Shown here piece by piece: positions 867 to 37,349 of a DNA stretch of 42,538 nt. The notes beneath the pieces were generated by a model that saw nothing but the letters and a program-made list of their open reading frames with translations, did not search any database and was not told the DNA's origin. How positions within the stretch are numbered: the first letter of the stretch is position 1; the number at the start of each line of letters is the position of its first letter. The stretch is from positions 1-42,538 of IMG/VR virus record IMGVR_UViG_3300005526_000005; one strand, written 5' to 3'. The DNA comes from a virus. The position numbers and the translations under genes were made by a program.

Positions 867-3811
867 TACTGCTGAACCTTTCGACTGCCATCTGGCATCT
901 CAAAGACCGGCTTACCCTGGAACGTCCCAACTTGTCTTGCCCCCGGCGGCGCTGCGGGGGACGGTGGGGCTGTGGCTGCCGGCACCTGCTGCCCCGGCGT
1001 TACCCCGCCGGGAACGGTTCCCCCGCGTGTCCTGATCGTCTCGTCGATCGCCGCTCGCTGCTCGTCAGAGAACAGCGGCTTATTGTGGATCGCCATCAGT
1101 TTTTGCGAGAGATCGGGTGCACCGAGATTATCGCGGTAGACCTTGGCAATTTCACTATTGCGATCGATCAGCGCCTTGGTCATCTCGGCCAGCTTGACGC
1201 GTCCGTCGCCGGTCGACATCAAGCCAGGTGAGGCCGCCAGATACCGGGTGACATCACGATCAGAGCTTGTCCCAGGCTCACGTATCGGGCCAATCAACCG
1301 TTGCTGTATTGCGCCTAGTAGTTCCGCGTTGGACATCCGATCGGTTGGGGCAAAGCCAAACCCAGCCAGCACTTTACCCATTGTTGCGCCGCTCTCACCG
1401 GCAATGCCCTCCGGCGTCTGGTAAGCCAAACGCACCACTTCATCGAGAAGCGGCCTCGTCTGCTGACCGGCTATCGCTTGTTGCATGATCGGTTCGGCCG
1501 TCTTCACGTCGAAGGCGATCCGGGCGGCGTTGACGGGATCTGGCTGCGTTTTGGTCCGTGCCCAATCATACCGGGACAGAACCGGCAGATTGCGCATCTG
1601 CTGGTCCTTTGCATATTCGTCGTAAGTTTGGCCTTCAGGCGTACCAACCGGCTGCGGAGAAATTTGCCCGGGCCGCACCGCCTCCCCTGTAGCTTGAGGG
1701 GTTCCAACCTGCTGGTTCTTGCCCAGATTTTCCCGCAGTTCCTTCAGGTACTCGACGACCGGGATCGTTACCGTGTAGTCGCGCCCGTCCGTTCCGCGCA
1801 CGATCTTTGTCGTTGTATCCTGGCTCTTTGCCCCCTCGGCCTTAGCAATCTCTTGATCCAGCACGGTCTTGGCGTAGCCGGGCGCCGAGATGAACTGACC
1901 GGTCTTTTCATCAAAGACCCGGCCCTCGCCGAGCATCTTCAACTGGTTCTTGTATAGCTCTTCCTGCAGGATGTACGGCTGTTGCGCCCCACGCGTCGCG
2001 GCTGCAGCCGGGCCAACGTAAGGCAGTTTCCCGGCTTCGCCGGCTCCGGCTGCTTCTCTCAGATACTCCGGCGATTTGTAATAACTTTCGAGAATGCTCT
2101 TGAACGGATTTCCGAGACCGGCGATCTCGGCGAGCGCATCAGCCTGGGCCGCCTCGGCCGGCGTGAGGTTGAAGCCGGGGATTTTACCCTGCGGCGTCAG
2201 CAGCCCCGGCCCGCCGGGCGCAGCGGGAGCCGCCAGAAGCCCGCCTGGTGCCGGCGCGTATTGCGTCCGCATCATCGGCAATGCCGGCCCACCTCCAGTC
2301 CGCACCACCGTATCCGCCCCCCCCGTCACCGTGCCCGCGGGCGCAGCGGCGACCTGATTGATCAGATCGGCAGGAACCGGCAGTTTCCCACCCTGCTCGT
2401 TGCGGATGGTGGCCTCGATCAGCTTCGCCTTCACGGCCGGATTGCTGACATCGAGCGGCGTGTCGGGATCGACGCCGACCACCTGCGAGGCGCGGCGGAT
2501 CAGGGTCGGTGTATCGTTCTCGCTCGGCGGCGCCCAGGTCGAGACAATCTCCCGGATCGTTGACAGCGGCTTGCCGGTCGTTGCGCCCGAGGCGTAGCGG
2601 TCGAGTTGCCGGGAGATGGCCGAGATCCCTTCCTCGGGCGAGCCGAACGACTGAAAGCCGCCCTGGCTCGGGCCGGCAACGACGCCCGGCCGGCGCAGAC
2701 CGCCGAAATTGTTGTTGGCGAGTTCCCAGGCCGACCCGCTGAGTGGCCCGCCGGTTTGGAGGGCTGCCGTCTGGATCGGCGCACGGCCGCCGCCCGCTCC
2801 CAGCATCTCCAGATGGTTCGCCTCGCCCGGCAGGTTGGCGAGGGTGTAGCCGACGCCGTATTGCGGGCCGTTCTGCCGTACCCAATCCAGCACAGCCGGG
2901 TCGGTGGTGGTGTCAACCGCAGTGCCGGCGGTATGCCGCGAGTTGGTTACGCCTGGATTGACCTCGGCCTGCCGTTCGGGGCTGCGGTATCCGGAGAGGA
3001 CATTGAACTTTTGCAGGATATCCGGCGGCATGCCGGCAAGCATGGCCTCGACCCGGTTGCTCATTTCAGGCGCGACACCGGTGATCGGGGAAGCCCCGCC
3101 CGCGACGGCATTGCCGACAGCATAATTCGCCAGTTGCGGCAACTCGGCCGGCTGCGGCGCCAGCAGCCGGCCGGTTTGATACGGCGCGAGATTCGCACTG
3201 AGAGCGGGTGTCGCTGCTGTTTGCGGTCGTCTTAGAACGCCGCCGGCCGCAAGCCCGCTATCGGCTGCGGGATAGTCGATGCTCGCTCTCGCATCGGGAA
3301 ACTTGGAAGTGCCGCCGTCCCCCGCATCGCTGAGATCCGTAGATTTGATTTCCGGCAGCAGCAGGCCAGGCAACCCGCGCGCTGCACCGCCGGCCGGTGC
3401 GGCCACAGCCCCACCACCCGGAGCGGCAGGCACGGCAAGCGGGCCGCCCGTGCCGACAGCAGCAGGAGTAGAGGCATCACCGCCGCCGGCACGCGCACGG
3501 GAAAGGATCTCCGTAAACAGATCCCGCGCCTTCGCCTTCGATTTCAGATCGGTAACCTGCTGCTGACGCAGCAGCCCCTCAAACAGCGTCTTCACCGCCT
3601 CGTCGTTGCCGGCGCCGTAGGCCCCGAAGCCCTGCCCGAGAATAGCCCCCAGCGGGATCGGGGCGCGTTGCGGCATGGCGAGCTGCCCGAACTTCTCGGC
3701 CATCGCGGCGAGGCTGCGCCCGGCGAGGCCGCTGCGCTGCTGCGGCGACAGCAGCCCGCCGTAGAGATCCTCGTCGGTGGACGTGTTGAAGAAGTCGAGC
3801 AGGCCCGCCAT
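866..3811 (-). CDS. Large virion protein with M15-type peptidase domain and a second wall-hydrolase-like domain
   Basis: This 981-aa protein starts at ATG 3811, preceded by an AAGGAA ribosome site. A longer in-frame extension upstream is Arg/Pro-rich and antisense-like, so I left it out. Residues about 255-340 look like a zinc D-Ala-D-Ala carboxypeptidase of the M15 family: SGYRSPERQ, then SRHTAGTAVD, then a late NHLEM. These supply the usual His/Asp metal ligands. Residues about 355-470 (NNNFGGLR, then SPEEGISAI, then WAPPSEND) resemble a domain seen in other phage structural proteins and may also act on peptidoglycan. The C-terminal half is Gln/Pro-rich and helical. It is probably carried in the virion and opens the cell wall during DNA entry. 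The peptidase call is good; the exact virion role is inferred. Confidence 0.85.
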   Translation of the reverse strand: MAGLLDFFNTSTDEDLYGGLLSPQQRSGLAGRSLAAMAEKFGQLAMPQRAPIPLGAILGQGFGAYGAGNDEAVKTLFEGLLRQQQVTDLKSKAKARDLFTEILSRARAGGGDASTPAAVGTGGPLAVPAAPGGGAVAAPAGGAARGLPGLLLPEIKSTDLSDAGDGGTSKFPDARASIDYPAADSGLAAGGVLRRPQTAATPALSANLAPYQTGRLLAPQPAELPQLANYAVGNAVAGGASPITGVAPEMSNRVEAMLAGMPPDILQKFNVLSGYRSPERQAEVNPGVTNSRHTAGTAVDTTTDPAVLDWVRQNGPQYGVGYTLANLPGEANHLEMLGAGGGRAPIQTAALQTGGPLSGSAWELANNNFGGLRRPGVVAGPSQGGFQSFGSPEEGISAISRQLDRYASGATTGKPLSTIREIVSTWAPPSENDTPTLIRRASQVVGVDPDTPLDVSNPAVKAKLIEATIRNEQGGKLPVPADLINQVAAAPAGTVTGGADTVVRTGGGPALPMMRTQYAPAPGGLLAAPAAPGGPGLLTPQGKIPGFNLTPAEAAQADALAEIAGLGNPFKSILESYYKSPEYLREAAGAGEAGKLPYVGPAAAATRGAQQPYILQEELYKNQLKMLGEGRVFDEKTGQFISAPGYAKTVLDQEIAKAEGAKSQDTTTKIVRGTDGRDYTVTIPVVEYLKELRENLGKNQQVGTPQATGEAVRPGQISPQPVGTPEGQTYDEYAKDQQMRNLPVLSRYDWARTKTQPDPVNAARIAFDVKTAEPIMQQAIAGQQTRPLLDEVVRLAYQTPEGIAGESGATMGKVLAGFGFAPTDRMSNAELLGAIQQRLIGPIREPGTSSDRDVTRYLAASPGLMSTGDGRVKLAEMTKALIDRNSEIAKVYRDNLGAPDLSQKLMAIHNKPLFSDEQRAAIDETIRTRGGTVPGGVTPGQQVPAATAPPSPAAPPGARQVGTFQGKPVFEMPDGSRKVQQ

Positions 3812-3821
3812 GGCAGGTTCC

Positions 3822-4247
3822 TTATTTCTTGTCGCGTGCGCTCGCCGCGTGCGTCTCGTGCGGGGTCGCCGCCCTGGCTGCATCGGCATGCGCCGATGGC
3901 GCGGACGCTGCCGTGGCAGTGGTGCCGGCGGCGGCGGGGATTGCCACCGCATTCGACGGCGGCGCCGCCAATGTGCCGTGCGGGTTGGTCGCGGTCACGG
4001 TGCAGGTGACCGAGGTGCCGGCATCGGCCGCCGCGACCTCGTAGGTGGTGCCGTCGGGACCGACCGTGCCGCCGCCGCTCCAGGCGTAGGCATAGGTCGG
4101 GCTGTCGCTCCAGCTTCCTGGGCTGCAGGTCAAGGTCGAGCCGATTTCACCGTTGCCTGAGACGTAAGGCCCGTCGCCGCGCAGTTCGGGCGGCAGGCGG
4201 CCTTCCAGCTCGTGGACCCGGCTGGCGAGTTCACCGAAATCAGACAT
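3822..4247 (-). CDS. Small virion-type protein with one Ig-like domain
   Basis: This protein has 141 aa. It begins MSDFGELASRVHELEG, a short helix, followed by one Ig-like beta domain with the pattern GSTLTCSPGSW, YAYAW, VTCTVTATNPHGT. The last 45 residues are Ala/His-rich and disordered. It is a paralogue of the next protein upstream (4266-4592), which shares the MSD-helix-Ig layout. Ig-like domains on phage virions commonly give weak attachment to cell-surface sugars. The location among tail genes suggests a decoration or tail accessory protein, but which surface it sits on cannot be told from sequence. Confidence 0.75.
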   Translation of the reverse strand: MSDFGELASRVHELEGRLPPELRGDGPYVSGNGEIGSTLTCSPGSWSDSPTYAYAWSGGGTVGPDGTTYEVAAADAGTSVTCTVTATNPHGTLAAPPSNAVAIPAAAGTTATAASAPSAHADAARAATPHETHAASARDKK

Positions 4248-4265
4248 AATCGTTTCCTCCTTTGG

Positions 4266-4592
4266 TTAAGGTATGGCGATACCGTTGGACGCCGGCGCCG
4301 CGGTGGTGCCGTTGGCATTGGTCGCGCTAACGACGCAGGTAATGGTATTGGCGGCGTCGCCGGCAACGACGGTGTAGGTGTTGACGCTGGTCCCGACATT
4401 GGTGACGCCGCGCTTCCACTGGTAGGCATAGCTGGTGGGCACCCCGAACCAATTGCCCAGCGTGCAATTCAGCACCGAGCCGACCACGGCCGGCGGGGTT
4501 GTCGGGTAAATCGCCGGCACGTCAATGTATTGCGGCGCGATGCGCCCGGCGGCGGTGCGCACCTGCTCGCGCAGCATTCCATAATCGCTCAT
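4266..4592 (-). CDS. Small virion-type protein with one Ig-like domain (paralogue of the downstream gene)
   Basis: This 108-aa protein starts at ATG 4592 after a clear GGAGG ribosome site. A longer in-frame start at 4811 would run back over the membrane-protein gene, so I rejected it. The N-terminus is a short helix (MSDYGMLREQVRTAAG). The rest is one Ig-like domain with VGSVLNCTLGNWF, YAYQWKRG and TITCVVSATNANGT. The two Ig-like genes are adjacent and probably arose by duplication. Confidence 0.75.
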   Translation of the reverse strand: MSDYGMLREQVRTAAGRIAPQYIDVPAIYPTTPPAVVGSVLNCTLGNWFGVPTSYAYQWKRGVTNVGTSVNTYTVVAGDAANTITCVVSATNANGTTAAPASNGIAIP

Positions 4593-4597
4593 TGAAT

Positions 4598-4762
4598 TCA
4601 GCCTCCTCGCAGACCGGGTGCGAACAGAAACAGTGTGATAAGCAGCACGCAGATAAAGGCCAGCCAGTTGCTGGCCCAGACATACGGCGTGATCTGCGGC
4701 ACCGGCAGGATTGAGAGAAACCAAAGGAAGAGGGTCATTATCAGCAAGATTTGGATGATCAT
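4598..4762 (-). CDS. Small two-helix membrane protein (holin candidate)
   Basis: This 54-aa protein starts at ATG 4762 and overlaps the stop of the S74 fibre gene as ATGA, so the two are probably translated together. It has two hydrophobic segments, about residues 2-19 and 29-48, a short polar turn, and a charged LRRG tail. Size and topology fit a class II holin or pinholin, but small membrane proteins of other roles look alike. The endolysin candidate is far away, at 19243-19872, so there is no classical lysis cassette to support the call. Confidence 0.6.
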   Translation of the reverse strand: MIIQILLIMTLFLWFLSILPVPQITPYVWASNWLAFICVLLITLFLFAPGLRGG

Positions 4763-5301
4763 CGCCGCCCCTCCAGAGCCTCAACGCGAGCCGCCAATTC
4801 CTTGCAGGCATTGATCAGCAGATAGTTTGTGTGTGTCGGCGAGAGCGTCATGAAACCATCGACCTCGCCCACCATCTCCGGCACCACCGGCGCTACGTCC
4901 TGCGCCATCAGGCCGAAGCGCGGGTCGGCGCTGCCACGGTACTTGAAACGCACCGGCTTCAGCGCCAGCACGGCCTGCAATCCTTTATCGTACCGCTGCA
5001 CCGAATGCTTCAGCCGCGCATCGCTCATGACAATCCACGAGCCGGACTGGTTGTAGGTGCCTGTGGTATCGAATTTCGCAATATCGAAACCGTCGCGGAT
5101 GGTGCCGCCGGTCAGCTTCAGATAGGTGAAGGGCAACTGAGCCATCGCCGCGGTGATAGTGTCATACCAGCGGCGGATCGCGCCCATCATCGCGCGGGCG
5201 CAGTTATTGACGCTCGCCGGGCTCTGACCCTCCGGCCACCCCGCTGGTGGTGCGGCGGTGTTGTTGTCGTCGACCGGGTCCCAGGTAGAAACTTCAGACA
5301 T
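4759..5301 (-). CDS. Tail fibre protein with C-terminal S74 intramolecular chaperone domain
   Basis: This protein has 180 aa. The N-terminal part (WDPVDDNNTAAPPAGWPEG and following) resembles the virion-attachment region of short fibres. From residue 92 it matches the peptidase S74 self-cleaving chaperone: SDARLK (S93, K98, the Ser-Lys dyad), then FKYRG, FGLMAQDV and a C-terminal helix with ELAARVEALE. Such domains help trimerise a beta-helical fibre and then cut themselves off. The body here is very short, so this may be a small fibre, or a chaperone that folds partner proteins. The 3' end overlaps the small membrane-protein gene by 4 nt. Confidence 0.82.
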   Translation of the reverse strand: MSEVSTWDPVDDNNTAAPPAGWPEGQSPASVNNCARAMMGAIRRWYDTITAAMAQLPFTYLKLTGGTIRDGFDIAKFDTTGTYNQSGSWIVMSDARLKHSVQRYDKGLQAVLALKPVRFKYRGSADPRFGLMAQDVAPVVPEMVGEVDGFMTLSPTHTNYLLINACKELAARVEALEGRR

Positions 5302-25231: not shown

Positions 25232-25356
25232 GGCTCGCACCATTCGATGGCAAACACTCGCCCTTGCTTGTCGAGCAGCAGCCAGCACCACATCCATTCC
25301 TGGTATGTTGTGATCGGCGACGGGCGCTGTCGCCAGATGGGGCCGATCCTGCTCAT
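25228..25356 (-). CDS. Small Trp-rich 42-aa protein
   Basis: The gene starts at ATG 25356 (ATGA overlap with the HNH gene) and ends in TGA overlapping the next ATG. It contains TTYQEWMWCWLLLDKQGRVF and looks like one short beta hairpin. The two 4-nt overlaps are the main support for its being a gene. Confidence 0.6.
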   Translation of the reverse strand: MSRIGPIWRQRPSPITTYQEWMWCWLLLDKQGRVFAIEWCEP

Positions 25357-25835
25357 GGCCGGCACTCCATCACCGCTGCGACGAACTCGGCGGCGGCTTG
25401 CGGCGTGATGGCGCGAAGATAGTTAGCGGCCGCCTCTAATCGAGCGGCGCTATCTCCGGCGTGGCCGACCATTCGGTTGCAGTTAGTGCAAAGAAGACCG
25501 CGGACACGACTAGTGCTGTGGTCGTGATCAACATCAAAGGCTCGCTCTTGCGTCTTTTGGCATATGGCGCATCGGCCATTTTGGCGTACAAACAACGCAT
25601 CGTACCCGGCCTGATCAATGCCGTATTTTCGTATTAAATGCCGCTCGCGCTCTCGTTCAGGATTAGCCCAGTAGCGGCGTTTGTCTCCATCTGTCCTGCG
25701 CATGTATTCGCGAGTCGCGGCCATCTTGCAGACTTTGCAACGCGCCTGTAGGCCATGTTTCTTGCGGCGATCCGCGAAGAAATCCGTCCTTGGCTTTGTT
25801 TGCCCACATGCGGTGCAGGTTCTCACGGAGCGCAC
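25353..25835 (-). CDS. Endonuclease VII-like HNH nuclease
   Basis: This protein has 160 aa. Residues 7-40 hold two CxxC pairs (CTACGQTKPRTDFFADRRKK, then CKVC), a zinc-binding treble clef common in this family. Residues 65-125 carry the recombination endonuclease VII core: YDALFVRQNGRCAICQ, then FDVDHDHSTSRVRGLLCTNC. The DHDH and the two CxxC pairs supply metal binding and catalysis. Family members resolve branched DNA or act as free-standing homing nucleases. It overlaps the C5 methyltransferase gene by 13 nt. Confidence 0.85.
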   Translation of the reverse strand: MRSVRTCTACGQTKPRTDFFADRRKKHGLQARCKVCKMAATREYMRRTDGDKRRYWANPERERERHLIRKYGIDQAGYDALFVRQNGRCAICQKTQERAFDVDHDHSTSRVRGLLCTNCNRMVGHAGDSAARLEAAANYLRAITPQAAAEFVAAVMECRP

Positions 25836-26509
25836 TCCATGAAAGCCTTTATGAACTCGGTAGCGAGCGGGGCGACAATCGCATTGCCGTAGGCGCGCAG
25901 TCGTCCCACTCGGGCGGAAACCCCATGCGCTGGCGCCATGTTTCCGGCGTCACTTCGATGCCGGCGCAACCCGGCCATTTTGCCATCGATGGGCACGATT
26001 GGTTGGCTGTTGCCGTTGGTGTTGCCGACAAAGTAAATCCGAGGGCGCGCATGGTCTTTGCCGACAGCGACAGCCGGAAGAACTGCCGCCCCGATTTCGT
26101 AACCCAGAACTTCCAAATCATCGCAGACGCGATCGAGCCAGCTTCCCTTCTGGGGAATCTGTTCACCAAAGAGCGTTCGAGGGCGAGTTGCAGCGATGAG
26201 ACGGCACCATTGCGGCCAGAGGTCTTGTGCAATGGTCCGACCTCGCGCCGCTCCTGAGAGCGGCTGACAGGGGCACGAACCTGTCCAAACAGGTCGAGCG
26301 TCATCCCATCCGGCCAGTCTGAGGGCGACTGACCAGCCTGCGATTCCGGCGAAGAAGTGGCACTGGCTGTAGCCGCGAAGATCGTCGGCTCGAACATCGA
26401 CAATTGAGCGTTCGTCGACATCGCCGCCCGCGATATGGCCTTCAGCGACGAGGTTTCGGAGCCACTGTGCGGCATAGGGATCGACCTCGTTGTAGTAGGC
26501 GGTGCTCAT
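25823..26509 (-). CDS. C5-cytosine DNA methyltransferase
   Basis: This protein has 228 aa, shorter than typical Dcm enzymes. Motif I is FFAGIAGWSVAL (residues about 52-63), motif IV GSCPCQPLSGA with the catalytic Cys in PCQ, and motif VI FGEQ in place of ENV. A motif VIII-like stretch is KDHARPRIYFVG, and motif X is RLRAYGNAIVAPLATEFI. The target-recognition region is very small. It probably protects phage DNA from host restriction, and it is one of three methyltransferases in this operon. Confidence 0.88.
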   Translation of the reverse strand: MSTAYYNEVDPYAAQWLRNLVAEGHIAGGDVDERSIVDVRADDLRGYSQCHFFAGIAGWSVALRLAGWDDARPVWTGSCPCQPLSGAARGRTIAQDLWPQWCRLIAATRPRTLFGEQIPQKGSWLDRVCDDLEVLGYEIGAAVLPAVAVGKDHARPRIYFVGNTNGNSQPIVPIDGKMAGLRRHRSDAGNMAPAHGVSARVGRLRAYGNAIVAPLATEFIKAFMECAP

Positions 26510-27614: not shown

Positions 27615-28645
27615 AGGGGTGCGCCCAGGTAAATTGGCTCGACGCAGAAGCCGATTTCGCTAAACACCTTGACGAATTGATTGAGGTTGCGGCCGTAATA
27701 GAAGAAGGCCTGTCCTTGGGTCGGCAGCACGGGTTGCGCATTGGGCACGGTGAAGTGAATGCGGCCGGTGGTGAAGCAGATGCCGTAGCAGGCGGCGGCG
27801 GCTCTAAAAAACCACTGCGTGTCGGTGGAATTGTTGGTGAGGACGATCGCCTGGTGGGTGCGCCCGGCGGCGATTTCATCGATCAGCTTATCGATAAACA
27901 GCGGCGCCAGCTCGCGGTGATAGGGCGGGTTGAGCCACACGTTGCCGTCCCAGGGTTGTTCCAGGCCGTTATCGGTTTCGGTGAAGAAGCGGGTGGCGCG
28001 GACGGTTTGCTGGGCAATTGGCGAGGAGGCCGGGTCGAGGTCGATGGTGCCGAGGACACGGCGGGCGCGCTCGATGTATTCGGCGGGCGTGTACCGCTCG
28101 AACTCGCCGGTGCCTTCAGTGCCGCGGATGGTGTTGGCGTTTTCCTGCTCGCAGATGCGGACGCTACGCCGACCGGCCTCTTCGAGAGCGGCACCTAGCT
28201 TGTCATCCGATACCACCCACCGCTTGCCTTCTTTCTCGCAGAGGCGCTGGCGCCAGCGGTGGACGATACGCTTGCCCGGGTCGGCGTCTGGCAAAACGGG
28301 TCTTGGAACTGCGACCCGTTTTCCTCGGCCGGGAGCACCGATCGCTTGCGACGGCACGGCAACATCCTGGCGGTAAACCACATAGCCCGCCTGCTTCGTC
28401 AGCTTCAGCTTGACTGCCTCGAATAGCTTCTCAGGGTCCTTGGCGGCCTTCCAGTGCTTCTCGGCGGCTTCCGCGACGACGATCTGTTTGAGCGAGGTTT
28501 CGGCGTCGGCGAGGGTCGCGGGAACATGGACGACCGGCAGCACCGCCGGCACTTTGGCGGCTTCACGCTGCTGCCGCAGCTCGGCGACGGCGGCGTAGTA
28601 CGAGTCGTGGAGGTCGACGCTGGCGTTGTATTCGCGCTCGGTCAC
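27608..28645 (-). CDS. Phage N6-adenine methyltransferase (Dam-type)
   Basis: This 345-aa protein starts at GTG 28645, overlapping the upstream stop as GTGA. Residues 1-165 are a charged helical region of unknown role. The methyltransferase domain starts at about 185 with GEFERYTPAEYIERAR, then IDLDPASSPIAQ, then VWLNPPYHRELAPLF with the catalytic NPPY. The last part is IVLTNNSTDTQWFF, then FTVPNAQPVLPTQGQAFFYYG. This matches the phage DNA N-6-adenine methyltransferase family. It probably guards against restriction or times replication and packaging. Confidence 0.86.
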   Translation of the reverse strand: MTEREYNASVDLHDSYYAAVAELRQQREAAKVPAVLPVVHVPATLADAETSLKQIVVAEAAEKHWKAAKDPEKLFEAVKLKLTKQAGYVVYRQDVAVPSQAIGAPGRGKRVAVPRPVLPDADPGKRIVHRWRQRLCEKEGKRWVVSDDKLGAALEEAGRRSVRICEQENANTIRGTEGTGEFERYTPAEYIERARRVLGTIDLDPASSPIAQQTVRATRFFTETDNGLEQPWDGNVWLNPPYHRELAPLFIDKLIDEIAAGRTHQAIVLTNNSTDTQWFFRAAAACYGICFTTGRIHFTVPNAQPVLPTQGQAFFYYGRNLNQFVKVFSEIGFCVEPIYLGAPLC

Positions 28646-28794
28646 GGCAGCGCCTCCGGCGATAAGTGCCGGCAGCCGCCGCTAGGGGGTAGCGCCGCGC
28701 GGAGGTTGTGCGCGGTGAGCGGCTGCCGGCAGCCGGCGTGCGGGCTGTCCCGAAGCGCCCGCGGGCCGGGTGGGGATGGGGTTGCGGCGCTCAT
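28642..28794 (-). CDS. Small 50-aa hypothetical protein
   Basis: The gene starts at ATG 28794 (ATGA overlap with the zinc-ribbon gene) and ends in TGA overlapping the GTG of the methyltransferase. It is rich in Pro, Ala and Arg with three Cys. Its support is the exact 4-nt overlap on both sides. The composition is weak evidence for a folded protein. Confidence 0.45.
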   Translation of the reverse strand: MSAATPSPPGPRALRDSPHAGCRQPLTAHNLRAALPPSGGCRHLSPEALP

Positions 28795-29045
28795 GCGGCG
28801 GCCTCGGTCGGCGGCACCAGGCGGGGCACCGGCGCCCGCACCGTCTGCGGCTGCTCCATCTCGTCGGCAACAGCGCGCAATCTGGCGGCGGCGGCGGCGA
28901 TGGCGTCGGGGTGCAGGGTGCTTTCCCAGGTGACCATGCGGTGGCCGCAGCGGCGGCAGCGGCGGATGCGGCGGACATAGCCGGACTGCGGCTGCAGCCG
29001 GCTATCGGTGACGCGGGTGGCGGCCTGGCAGTGCGGGCAGGGCAT
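28791..29045 (-). CDS. Zinc-ribbon protein (NrdR/Ogr-like)
   Basis: This 84-aa protein starts at ATG 29045, sharing a base with the upstream stop (TGATG). MPCPHC, then a DSR and Arg-rich hairpin, then CRRCGHRMVTWE form a zinc ribbon nearly identical in plan to the N-terminal domain of NrdR and similar to Ogr/Delta activators. A helical tail follows instead of the NrdR ATP-cone. It is probably a small DNA-binding regulator. Confidence 0.75.
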   Translation of the reverse strand: MPCPHCQAATRVTDSRLQPQSGYVRRIRRCRRCGHRMVTWESTLHPDAIAAAAARLRAVADEMEQPQTVRAPVPRLVPPTEAAA

Positions 29046-29206
29046 CAGCGGCTCCGCCCGGTCGCTGGAGGCGCTGCGCGGCGGGTGTCGGGGCGCCATT
29101 CCGGGGGGATATATTCACCCGCGAGCCAGCGGCGGCGCAGCTCGGCGATCACCGCCATATAGCTTTCGTAGAAGTCGCGCTCGGGATCGAAGATGCGATT
29201 AGTCAC
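29045..29206 (-). CDS. Small 53-aa protein, GTG start
   Basis: The gene starts at GTG 29206, overlapping the beta-class methyltransferase stop as GTGA, and ends sharing a base with the next ATG. It begins with TNRIFDPERDFYESYM and is a charged amphipathic helix followed by a Pro/Arg tail. The N-terminal part resembles that of the Dam-type protein further on (EYNASVDLHDSYYAAVAELR), so the two may share a small helical module. Confidence 0.6.
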   Translation of the reverse strand: MTNRIFDPERDFYESYMAVIAELRRRWLAGEYIPPEWRPDTRRAAPPATGRSR

Positions 29207-33357: not shown

Positions 33358-34264
33358 AGTGCGCGAAATTACGTCTACTGGGGATTGGCTCGACTGGCGG
33401 CGTGCCGACATAACAGCGAGCCGGCTACCGGCATTGTTCGGATTGCATCCATATTTGTCACTTGAGCAACTCGCCGAAATCATGCGCGGCGCGGTATCGA
33501 GCGGCGCCGGGGCGATCCCTGCCGATAGTCCCGCAATGCGGGCTGGCCGTATTCTAGAGCCTGCCGTTGCCGCTGCTATCCGCGAAGAAAAACCCGAATG
33601 GACGCTGCGGAAGGCATCGACATATCACCGGCTGCCGGAACACCGGCTTGGATGCACGCCTGACTATTGGTGTGCAGCAGAAGAGGATGACGGGCTCATT
33701 CAGATTAAGACTGTCGGACCGCATCAGTTTGAGAAGTGGCACGGCCGTCCGCCGACCGGGTACTTGATCCAGACGCTTGCAGAATTGATTGTCACCGGGC
33801 GCACGTGGGGTTGTTTGGCGGTAATGGTGCGCTCGCCTAGCTATCCGGTCTTTTATTATTCAGTCCCGCGTCACGAAGCGGCTGAGGCCAAGATCCTCGA
33901 TGCTGTCGCAGCGTGGTGGCGCGACTTCGATGCCGGCCTGCTTCCTGGCGCTGCACCAAGCGAGGCGCTAGCGGCCGACTTGGATGATGGTTCGTATCGA
34001 GACTTATCGAGCGACAATTTCCTCTGCGCCTCGCTGCCGGAGCGCGAGCAACTGAAATCCGAGATTTCGGCAGCCGAGAAGCGTGTCGCCGAGATTGACG
34101 CGGCGCTGAAGGCGGCGCTGGGGCCGGCGAGCAGCGGCTGGCTACCGGGCTACAACATCACCTGGCGCACCCAGCACCGACGCGAGACTGTCATCCCCGA
34201 GCGCGATATCCGCGTGCTGCGCGTGCGGGCCGCCGCCGAGGAGGAGGGAGCCGATGTCCAATGA
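33347..34264 (+). CDS. YqaJ-type viral exonuclease
   Basis: This protein has 305 aa. The N-terminal two thirds match the lambda-exonuclease-like YqaJ domain: [39 protein letters not shown], then [13 protein letters not shown], giving the E, D and ExK-like (QIK) metal site. The C-terminal part is a helical region. It is followed directly by the RecT-like gene (11-nt overlap). The pair forms a phage recombination system that chews ends and anneals strands. Confidence 0.88.
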
Positions 34265-35330
34265 GTTAGCGCCGCTGCCGTTTGAACAGATGCAGGCGTT
34301 GGCGCAGTCGATCGCGCGCAGCGGCATGTTCGGGATCAAGACACCGGATCAAGCGATGGTGTTGATGGCGATCGCCGCCGCTGAAGGGCGACCGGCGGTT
34401 CTGGCCGCACGCGATTATCATGTGATAAACGGCAGCCCGTCGAAGAAATCGGAAGCAATGCTGCGGGACTTCCTCGGGGCCGGTGGCCGGGTGCAGTGGC
34501 ACGAGCTGAGCGACCAGGCTGCCGAGGCGACGTTCTCGCACCCGCAGGGCGGCGAAGCGAAGATCCGCTGGGACGCGGCCCGCGTAGCGCAGGCGCAACT
34601 GTCGAACCCGATGCACCGCAAGTTTCCCAGGCAGATGCTGCGCTCGCGGGTGGTGTCGGAAGGTGTCCGCACGATCTGGCCGATGGCTACGGGGGGCCTT
34701 TACGCGCCCGAGGAGGCGGCCGAGATGCGGGCGGAGCCGATCGACGTGACGCCGCCGCCCGCGCCGGTCGACACGGCGGCCGATCTCGATGCCTTCGCCG
34801 GCATGACGGCGTCGATCGATGAAGTGGCGCTGCAAAACGAGGCCAACAGCGCAGCAATGCTGGGTGCCGAGGCGTTTCGCGCCTTCTGGGCGGCTTTAGA
34901 CCCTGCCATGCGCAATTCGCTGCGCCCCGCGCTTTCCGCCTATCAAGCTACCGCCGCAACTGCCGACGAGCGTGCGCGCGATGAAGACCCCTTCGGCCTG
35001 CCGCCGCTGCCCGAGGCGGCAAAGCCCCGCTTGAGGTACGCCGACGACGAGATGCCGGGGGAAGTAGTGATTGTCGAGGCGCCGGCGGTGCCGTTTGCGG
35101 CGGCGGTGCGGGCGCTGATGCCAGTTGCCAACGAGGGCGGCGAGCTGAACTGGCAGGCGTGGAGCGATGCGTTTGTCGAGCTGATCGCCAGCGCCAGCCC
35201 GGGGGATTGCGAGAAATTGCGGATATCGTCGCTGGCGCAGTTCGGCCGGTGCCGGACCCAGAACGGCGATGCGGCGCGCGCCATCCTTGATGCGCTGGCG
35301 GCAAGAACGAAGGAGGTGACAAATGGCTGA
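34254..35330 (+). CDS. RecT-like single-strand annealing protein
   Basis: This protein has 358 aa. Residues 10-160 fit the RecT core: MQALAQSIARSGMFGIKTPDQ, AAEGRPAVLAARDYHVINGSP, KKSEAMLRDFL, then PRQMLRSRVVSEGVRTIWP and GGLYAPEEAAEM. The rest is a Pro/Ala/Asp linker and a helical C-terminal domain probably contacting partners. It binds ssDNA made by the adjacent exonuclease. Confidence 0.85.
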   Translation: MSNELAPLPFEQMQALAQSIARSGMFGIKTPDQAMVLMAIAAAEGRPAVLAARDYHVINGSPSKKSEAMLRDFLGAGGRVQWHELSDQAAEATFSHPQGGEAKIRWDAARVAQAQLSNPMHRKFPRQMLRSRVVSEGVRTIWPMATGGLYAPEEAAEMRAEPIDVTPPPAPVDTAADLDAFAGMTASIDEVALQNEANSAAMLGAEAFRAFWAALDPAMRNSLRPALSAYQATAATADERARDEDPFGLPPLPEAAKPRLRYADDEMPGEVVIVEAPAVPFAAAVRALMPVANEGGELNWQAWSDAFVELIASASPGDCEKLRISSLAQFGRCRTQNGDAARAILDALAARTKEVTNG

Positions 35331-35913
35331 ATTTGTATTGCATATCGTGGGCTTATCGCCGCTGTTGACACACAACCCGGCATCGATGGCGATCCCTAAA
35401 GCGGTGGGCACGAGAGGCTCCAACATTCCGCTGCCGGAAGTCGAGGCCGAGGCTGCGGCTTATCGGTTGGCTGATGGGCAATGCGCGCTCCCGGCCATCG
35501 CACTGCGCTCGGCGATCATCGAGGCGGCGGGCGCCTGGAAGGCGGCGGGCCGGCGCAGTTCCATGAAATCCGTTCTAGCCCACATCGAGGTCCAAGACGA
35601 GCTGCTGCCGCTGTGGAACCCCGACGATGGCTCGCCGCTAACGTCATATGTCATCGACCGGCGCCGTGTCCGGGTGCAGCGTGCCGGCGTTATGCGGGCT
35701 CGACCGAGGTTCGAGCGATGGGGTACCAGCATAATCTTGGGGTTTGATGAGGTGCTGTTAACGCAACCGTCCATTATTAAGGAGATCGCCAACGACGCCG
35801 GCCGGCGGTTTGGTGTCGGTGACTATCGGCCGCAAACAAAGGGTTGGTTTGGAAAATTTGCTACCTCTGATCAAGCTGCCTGGACGGCGGCGCTGCCGCT
35901 CGCGGCGGAATGA
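35323..35913 (+). CDS. Recombination-operon protein, possible RAMP/Cas7-like fold
   Basis: This protein has 196 aa, with an 8-nt overlap with the RecT-like gene. It begins with a strand FVLHIVGLSPLLTHNP, then ALPAIALRSAIIEAAG, SYVIDRRRVRV, RPRFERWG, and a final glycine-rich loop RFGVGDYRPQTKGWFGKF. A repeated strand-helix plan with a G-x-G near the end is seen in RAMP-type RNA/ssDNA-binding proteins. Position beside exonuclease and annealase suggests ssDNA binding. The fold assignment is inference and needs a structural test. Confidence 0.55.
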   Translation: MAEFVLHIVGLSPLLTHNPASMAIPKAVGTRGSNIPLPEVEAEAAAYRLADGQCALPAIALRSAIIEAAGAWKAAGRRSSMKSVLAHIEVQDELLPLWNPDDGSPLTSYVIDRRRVRVQRAGVMRARPRFERWGTSIILGFDEVLLTQPSIIKEIANDAGRRFGVGDYRPQTKGWFGKFATSDQAAWTAALPLAAE

Positions 35914-35918
35914 AAGTG

Positions 35919-36251
35919 GCGGGGCAGGCCTGGCGCGGCGGGGCGTGGCTCGGCGGGGCGGGGCGAGGCGGGGTGAGGCAGGGCAGGGCAGGGATTTTGT
36001 TTGTTGGTTTTGTGGCGAGGCCAGGCTTGGCGTGGTCGGGCGAGGTCTGGATTGGCCCGGCGGGGCAAGGCATGGCAGGGATTTGTTTGCAGGATTTGCG
36101 GCACGGCAGGGTGTGGCTTGGTCCGGCCGGGTATGGCTTGGCAAGGCAGGGCGAGGCAGGGCATGGCAGGGATTTGTTGAGTGAGTTTCAGGCGCGGCTG
36201 GGCGGGGCACGGCTCGGTACGGCTGGGCTGGGCGAGGCATGGCGAGGATTT
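35919..36251 (+). repeat. GGCNN pentanucleotide array in four blocks
   Basis: Four blocks of consecutive GGYNN pentamers (mostly GGC; 14 in a row in block 3, 36100 to about 36169) are present. Each ends in GATTT: at 35993, 36080, 36171 and 36247, spaced 87, 91 and 76 nt. The first three GATTT tails continue GTTTG or GTTGA. The plus-strand transcript would be G-rich, the minus strand C-rich. No open frame here has protein-like composition, so I treat it as noncoding between the RAMP-like and ParB-like genes. Confidence 0.9.
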
Positions 36252-36257
36252 AGACCG

Positions 36258-36923
36258 ATGCAATTAGAGATCAGCAAAATCGTGCGGGACGAGACCATCT
36301 ACCCGCGCAACAACGCGAACGAGTTCACGATCGCGCGCATGCTGGCGAATTTTGATGCCGGCGCCAAGTTTCCGCCGGTGACGGTGACGGCGGAAACCTA
36401 TCGCCTGGTCGATGGCTGGCACCGGGTCGAGGTTTATCGGCGTCGTAGTGTCGACAAGGTGTCGGTGACGGTAAAGCAGTATGCGAGCGAAGCCGACATT
36501 TTCGCCGATGCGGTACGTCTCAACATCCAGCATGGCCAGCCGCTCAGCTCGTTCGATGTCCGCGCCTCCATCGCACGCCTGATGCAGCTCGGGTATCAAC
36601 GAGACGAGATTGCGGAGGTGGTTCGCATGCCCGCGGCGAATATCGAAGAAATTACCCGCGGCTTTGCCGTGGGACCGGCCGGCAATGCACCGGTCGCCCT
36701 AAAAGGCGGGCTGCAGCATCTGCGCGGGCAAAACCTTACAGAGCGCCAGCAAAAAGCGCAGCGACATTATGGCGGCGGCGCGGCGCTGTTTTATGTCCGA
36801 CAGATTGCCCTGCTGCTCAACAATGATTTGTGGCCGACGCGATCGAATCTGTTCGCCGAGGAGATGGACGCGTTGGCGGCAGCCTGGCTGGAACTACGCA
36901 AGCCGCATCAACGCGCAGGCTAA
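36258..36923 (+). CDS. ParB/sulfiredoxin-fold protein
   Basis: This protein has 221 aa from ATG 36258. The frame is open further back to 35910, but only through the GGCNN repeats. Residues 1-75 are a ParB-like N-domain (MQLEISKIVRDETIYPRNN, FPPVTVTAETYRLVDGWHRVE). HTH-like helices follow (FDVRASIARLMQLGYQRDEIAEVV). The last 60 residues are helical. Phage ParB-like proteins may be nucleases, partition or transcription factors. A role linked to the repeats just upstream is possible. Confidence 0.78.
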   Translation: MQLEISKIVRDETIYPRNNANEFTIARMLANFDAGAKFPPVTVTAETYRLVDGWHRVEVYRRRSVDKVSVTVKQYASEADIFADAVRLNIQHGQPLSSFDVRASIARLMQLGYQRDEIAEVVRMPAANIEEITRGFAVGPAGNAPVALKGGLQHLRGQNLTERQQKAQRHYGGGAALFYVRQIALLLNNDLWPTRSNLFAEEMDALAAAWLELRKPHQRAG

Positions 36924-36935
36924 AGGAGAGCGCCG

Positions 36936-37349
36936 ATGGCTGCCCCCACAGCCGCCCCCAACCGGCCGCAGGTTGAACCGCTGTATTACGAAGTCGAGGC
37001 TGCGAGAATACTGGGCGTGCCGCCGCGTGCGCTGCGCTCGGAGCGCACCGCCGGCCGGATCACCTATCGCAAAGTGGCCGGCCGGATCATGTACCGCGCC
37101 GACGATCTAACCGCCTGGCAGGAGAACATTGCATGCCCCGTCCTTCCACAGGACCGAAGCTTAGAGCGAATCCGAAACGCGACGGCATATACTACATCTA
37201 CTGGACCGATGAGCGAGGACGGGGCCGCGAGCGTTCGACGGGCACTAGAGACCACCGCAAGGCTGCGGCAATCTTTGCGGAGTGGCTCGACACAAGAGCC
37301 CGCCCCCTCGAATGGACCGGGCCAAATCGTGCCTCTGAGACAAGAATAG
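36936..37349 (+). CDS. Excisionase-like HTH protein
   Basis: This 137-aa protein starts at ATG 36936 after a strong AAAGGAGAG site. Residues 17-65 are a MerR-like winged HTH (LYYEVEAARILGVPPRALR, ITYRKVAGRIMYRADDLTAW), as in phage excisionases and helix-turn-helix 17 proteins. The remaining 70 residues run out of frame over the integrase start (217-nt overlap) and look less ordered. It probably directs excision with the integrase. Confidence 0.75.
   Translation: MAAPTAAPNRPQVEPLYYEVEAARILGVPPRALRSERTAGRITYRKVAGRIMYRADDLTAWQENIACPVLPQDRSLERIRNATAYTTSTGPMSEDGAASVRRALETTARLRQSLRSGSTQEPAPSNGPGQIVPLRQE

Follow-up and report, generated by a model that had tools for sequence, protein, structure and literature searches.

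Viral Interference Programmable Repeat (VIPR) systems, described in a 2026 preprint (PMC13142463), occur mostly in phages and comprise a small single-RRM RAMP protein (Vipr) and vrRNAs, usually together with one accessory gene (vap). Each vrRNA consists of 9 to 16 tandem YNNGG repeats with a fixed GGY and a hypervariable NN, followed by an invariable 3' tail (PMC13142463). The NN letters address double-stranded DNA, with one base skipped between pairs, and binding of the complex silences transcription; in other VIPRs the guides match competing mobile elements, and the vrRNAs are expressed and bound by Vipr (PMC13142463). This non-contiguous guide code has been proposed to be older than CRISPR (PMC13142463). 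Here, we describe a locus within a 42,538-nt stretch of viral DNA (IMG/VR record IMGVR_UViG_3300005526_000005, positions 1 to 42,538; hereafter the window) whose pentamer array is very probably the vrRNA guide array of a phage-borne VIPR system, working as proposed below.

Positions 35918 to 36250 of the window are made up of GGY-NN units in strict 5-nt phase, arranged in four blocks of 13, 13, 14, and 11 units, the first full-phase units of which start at 35927, 36014, 36100, and 36191 (spacings of 87, 86, and 91 bp). All four blocks lie on the + strand. Block 1 (35918 to 36013) is preceded by two extra units and a 4-nt slip (GGCGG GGCA) and continues with NN = CT GC GG GT TC GG GG GA GG GA AG AG AG before a U-rich tail, GGATTTTGTTTG..., from 35992. 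Block 2 (36014 to 36099; NN = GA CA TT GT CG GA CT TT CC GG AA AT AG) carries a single A in place of Y, in the unit GGATT at 36049, and its tail, GGATTTGTTTGC..., runs from 36079. Block 3 (36100 to 36190; NN = AC AG GT TT CC CG AT TT AA AG GA AG AT AG) has the tail GGATTTGTTGAG... from 36170, and block 4 (36191 to 36257; NN = GC TG GG AC TC AC TG TG GA AT GA) ends in a short tail, GGATTTAGACCG, touching the start codon of the next gene. GGATTT closes every block and GGATTTKTT is common to three, a conservation judged on four short copies, too few for a covariation test. GGY units follow one another without a break up to 14 times, compared to at most 4 in 100 Markov shuffles of the window, and a GGCNN pattern of six units with up to two mismatches gave 31 matches against 0.10 expected. 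A first-pass annotation had described a nonrandom GGYNN array in strict 5-base phase, with a 14-unit run and four closed blocks, which these counts confirm; the real feature reaches past its coordinates (35919 to 36251) and takes in both flanking genes (35323 to 36923). Its further suggestion that the G-rich runs could form quadruplexes was not borne out, as allowing G-quadruplexes changed the fold predicted for block 1 but for none of the other three. A search of the array against Rfam found neither a hammerhead nor any other RNA. The array grammar is that published for vrRNAs, with 9 to 16 YNNGG units and a 3' tail.

The gene ending five bases ahead of block 1 (vipr, 35323 to 35913, + strand) encodes a 196-aa RAMP-family protein, the small RAMP homologue by which a VIPR is recognized. 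It was assigned to phrog_4652 (6.3e-19), which also takes the protein of Escherichia phage SUSP1 encoded at 28474 to 29061 of KT454805 (1.4e-96), itself located among GGT-NN arrays. BLASTP aligned the window Vipr directly with SUSP1 Vipr (7e-11), a protein already characterized by experiment. A family profile of 68 relatives, from which SUSP1 was excluded, matched PDB entry 36pp ("SUSP1 Vipr protein") at 9.1e-46, and the window protein as sole query matched the same entry at 8.7e-6. The AlphaFold2 model (pLDDT 87) returned only Csm3/Cas7-type RAMPs as leading Foldseek matches, and VIA-align comparison with Csm3/Cas7 gave Z scores of up to 11.7 over 161 residues. Residues G160, G164, G166, R169, and G177 are near-invariant and, judged by position, fit the RAMP glycine-rich loop.

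Like the type II VIPR of SUSP1 (PMC13142463; PDB 36pp), the locus is phage-borne and combines a small RAMP protein with an adjacent same-strand vrRNA array of GGY/NN pentamers, several guides with a tail, and an accessory gene with a predicted DNA-binding role. The two differ in that the window guides sit between vipr and the accessory gene, C predominates over T at the pyrimidine position, the tails are U-rich and short where the SUSP1 tail is structured, and the accessory protein is ParB-like where SUSP1 has Vap1 (phrog_5926). In the Vipr tree, the window protein is separated from SUSP1 Vipr by a well-supported split and is sister to the Vipr of locus L104 (support 100/95). Class 1 CRISPR-Cas systems share the RAMP fold of Csm3/Cas7 and, by implication, RNA-guided recognition; in contrast, the window has a single RAMP gene and no CRISPR repeats or spacers, and the neighboring genes scanned gave no match to Cas1, Cas2, Cas10, or any other Cas protein.

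Close Vipr relatives were found neither by a single-protein search of viral contigs nor by tblastn in INPHARED; it took the arrays together with an iterated profile to recover relatives. Scanning viral contigs for eight GGC pentamers returned at least 120 stretches. We then looked for Vipr in these with an iterated profile that started from the SUSP1 and window proteins. Among the matches listed, a Vipr gene is present in 85 of 120 loci, an association that is not circular because the scan selected arrays and not Vipr. The other 35 listed loci gave no Vipr match in the stretch covered, some being incomplete or possibly chance GC-rich coding repeats. Within the listed Vipr loci, runs of at least six GGY units are overwhelmingly on the vipr strand (356, versus 7 on the opposite strand), at a median distance of 238 bp from vipr. 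Over 4059 units from the matches listed, GGY is fixed and NN nearly random (3.88 of 4 bits), and NN variability drops in the final two units ahead of a break (3.28 and 3.58 bits). This reduced variability suggests proximity to the fixed tail, where the last two units would hold less target information.

Among the matches listed, the closest Vipr (43%) is that of L104, a phage fragment in which vrRNA-like arrays are scattered between several genes (1340 to 5000, - strand); one of these arrays ends AAGGAGAACTGAAATG, so that its last repeats adjoin the ribosome site and start codon. In Mycobacterium phage Quico (L238; NC_028751, 37290 to 38285), a Vipr homologue (2e-54), annotated as the hypothetical protein QUICO_57, is encoded directly downstream of several abutting GGCNN guide arrays, with CATGGCA|GGC slips between them, and Florinda gave the same array match. 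As a cultured phage of M. smegmatis, Quico would offer a tractable VIPR host.

Comparison with relatives places vipr, the array, and the downstream ParB-like gene in a single 1.6-kb cassette (35317 to 36923, + strand) of vipr, four vrRNA genes, and a putative vap. The related locus L133 carries YqaJ, RecT, HTH, and integrase genes in the window's order but lacks the cassette; its DNA homology to the window ends at 35316, the end of RecT, and restarts at 36924, the base after the ParB-like stop codon. Thus vipr, the array, and the ParB-like gene were gained or lost together. Both neighbors lie outside the cassette: to the left, a RecT-like annealase gene (34254 to 35330, + strand; phrog_561, 9.3e-9) kept in L133 and L231, and to the right, an HTH/excisionase-like gene (36936 to 37349, + strand; HTH_17, 3.8e-7) kept in L133 at 73% identity. 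Where the window has the cassette, L133 has a small, unrelated open frame (8835 to 9026) some 60 codons long, so the spot may be a site of cargo exchange. Both vipr and the array were absent from all 37 relatives searched, some of whose records are fragments, and the ParB-like gene from all 19 vipr-less relatives searched, with four positive controls detected. Absence of the array from close relatives with the same gene order, which the first-pass annotation would have counted against a functional array, was indeed observed, yet the array was lost jointly with vipr and the ParB-like gene, a pattern that indicates a mobile cassette rather than an artefact. The phage is temperate, and its TerL has relatives in Pseudolabrys (68% identity) and Bradyrhizobium (63 to 64%); its host is probably a member of the Xanthobacteraceae.

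The same comparison bears on the proposal that the array works for the YqaJ/RecT pair, either by stimulating recombination or as a replication origin. Although the array lies 0.6 kb from RecT, YqaJ and RecT are retained in L133 and L231 without any array, and elsewhere arrays go with vipr, so we give this explanation almost no weight. The proposal came from the first-pass annotation, but relatives keep YqaJ, RecT, HTH, and integrase with no array, and arrays track vipr rather than the RecT or exonuclease genes with which an association had been suggested. Taken with the Vipr homology and linkage, the joint absence of the cassette argues that the array is not an origin or recombination stimulator, nor a ParB site or coding repeat.

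The accessory gene linked to vipr is the ParB-like gene, a candidate vap (36258 to 36923, + strand; 221 aa). Its product has a PHROG ParB-like assignment (2.4e-10), and its AlphaFold2 model matches ParB, Noc, and KorB (Foldseek E value, 2e-6). The canonical ParB box is GxRRxxA. While the window protein shares the fold of the ParB, Noc, and KorB CTPase clamps, it carries the conserved box DG(F/W)HR instead, and neither a ParA gene nor parS was seen. Homologues lie beside vipr in L048, L074, L041, and L104 and beside an array in L111; the array precedes the ParB-like gene in the window and follows it in L041 and L074. On the Vipr tree the ParB label requires at least three changes, implying repeated exchange or loss of this accessory gene; a ParB-fold accessory gene is tied to vipr in at least three places of that tree. 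The main text of the preprint makes no mention of ParB (PMC13142463).

Given that this gene begins 12 bases past the last pentamers and that its product has a ParB/KorB fold with an HTH, the array could instead be a parS-like partition or nucleation site for the ParB-like protein, as had initially been suggested. We consider this very unlikely. No inverted repeats of at least 12 nt, and hence nothing resembling a palindromic parS, were found between 35800 and 36400, and the nearly random NN is a variation that a protein binding site would not need. Moreover, about 80 of the 85 Vipr-plus-array loci among the matches listed have no detected ParB-like homologue, and the order of array and ParB-like gene differs between the window and L041 and L074. 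What did stand of the earlier suggestion is a functional tie between the array and its RAMP-like and ParB-like neighbors, seen in the vipr linkage and the joint cassette.

A coding role, in which the array would lengthen the ParB-like protein at its N terminus by a low-complexity segment starting at 35910, is scarcely credible. The frame from 35910 to 36923 does cross the array and enter the ParB-like gene without a stop codon, with an ATGA overlap, but an open frame is expected by chance because GGYNN yields few stop codons: on the same scaffold, 33% of random-NN trials left it open (P = 0.33). Furthermore, a 5-nt period imposes no codon-level constraint, the ParB frame does not continue across the upstream array in L104 and L111, and no array lies ahead of the ParB-like gene in L041 and L074. 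The first-pass view that the array is not coding was thus right in substance, this chance-level open frame notwithstanding.

We therefore return to the array as a set of vrRNA guides. Most likely, each block is transcribed and bound by Vipr, steering it to competitor DNA through the NN letters. By analogy with other VIPRs, vipr, the array, and the ParB-like gene would be transcribed as a single unit, and the transcript would be cut or ended at the GGATTT tails to give about four RNAs. Along each RNA, every GGY-NN pentamer could then be occupied by one Vipr protomer, which grips GGY and displays the NN pairs. The resulting ribonucleoprotein would bind double-stranded DNA matching the NN pairs with one base skipped (NNxNNx...) and block transcription at the target, which most likely lies in a phage or prophage competing in the same host. 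As an accessory factor, the ParB-like protein may make binding at the site stronger or extend it. RNA production, Vipr binding, the skip rule, and silencing were shown for other VIPRs (PMC13142463), from which we infer them for this phage; our own analysis establishes the array grammar, the homology and RAMP fold of Vipr, the ParB fold, the linkage among vipr, array, and ParB-like gene, and the cassette borders. More speculatively, the RNA-guided Vipr complex might be a programmable site at which a ParB/KorB-like clamp is loaded, making this a distinct VIPR variant, an idea we regard as improbable. Were it true, an RNA address would replace parS and silencing would spread along the target DNA.

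Target searches spanned a small share of the phage world. Exact 10-unit one-base-skip patterns of all four guides had no match in IMG/VR viral contigs, and 13-unit patterns of guides 2 and 3, allowing 3 mismatches, had none in 228 genomes of the Bradyrhizobium family, to which the host probably belongs. For all guides, no one-base-skip score exceeded those of shuffled unit orders in 2.0 Mb of viral loci (skips 0 to 3) or 1.1 Mb of related phages (skips 0 to 2), and no self-target was found within the window. It is likely that the victim of these guides is either unsequenced or diverged. With no target found for the four guides, an antagonistic role in this phage is drawn from other VIPRs. The locus would represent a complete minimal VIPR cassette in a temperate phage, with borders set by comparison to an empty site, and such arrays are recognizable from sequence alone though easily taken for low-complexity junk or coding repeats.

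Elsewhere in the window, a group I intron (14184 to 14427, - strand; Rfam, 91.6 bits) sits immediately upstream of a reading frame for an SU10-type major capsid protein (13255 to 14145) that lacks the start of its domain, suggesting that the intron probably interrupts the capsid gene. On the same strand (25353 to 26509), a gene (25353 to 25835) whose product has a recombination endonuclease VII domain runs into the end of a C5 DNA methylase gene (25823 to 26509) that spans only part of its domain, possibly a homing-type insertion. The integrase gene is followed, 1.2 kb downstream, by a complete tRNA-Val gene (39344 to 39418), a possible attachment site.
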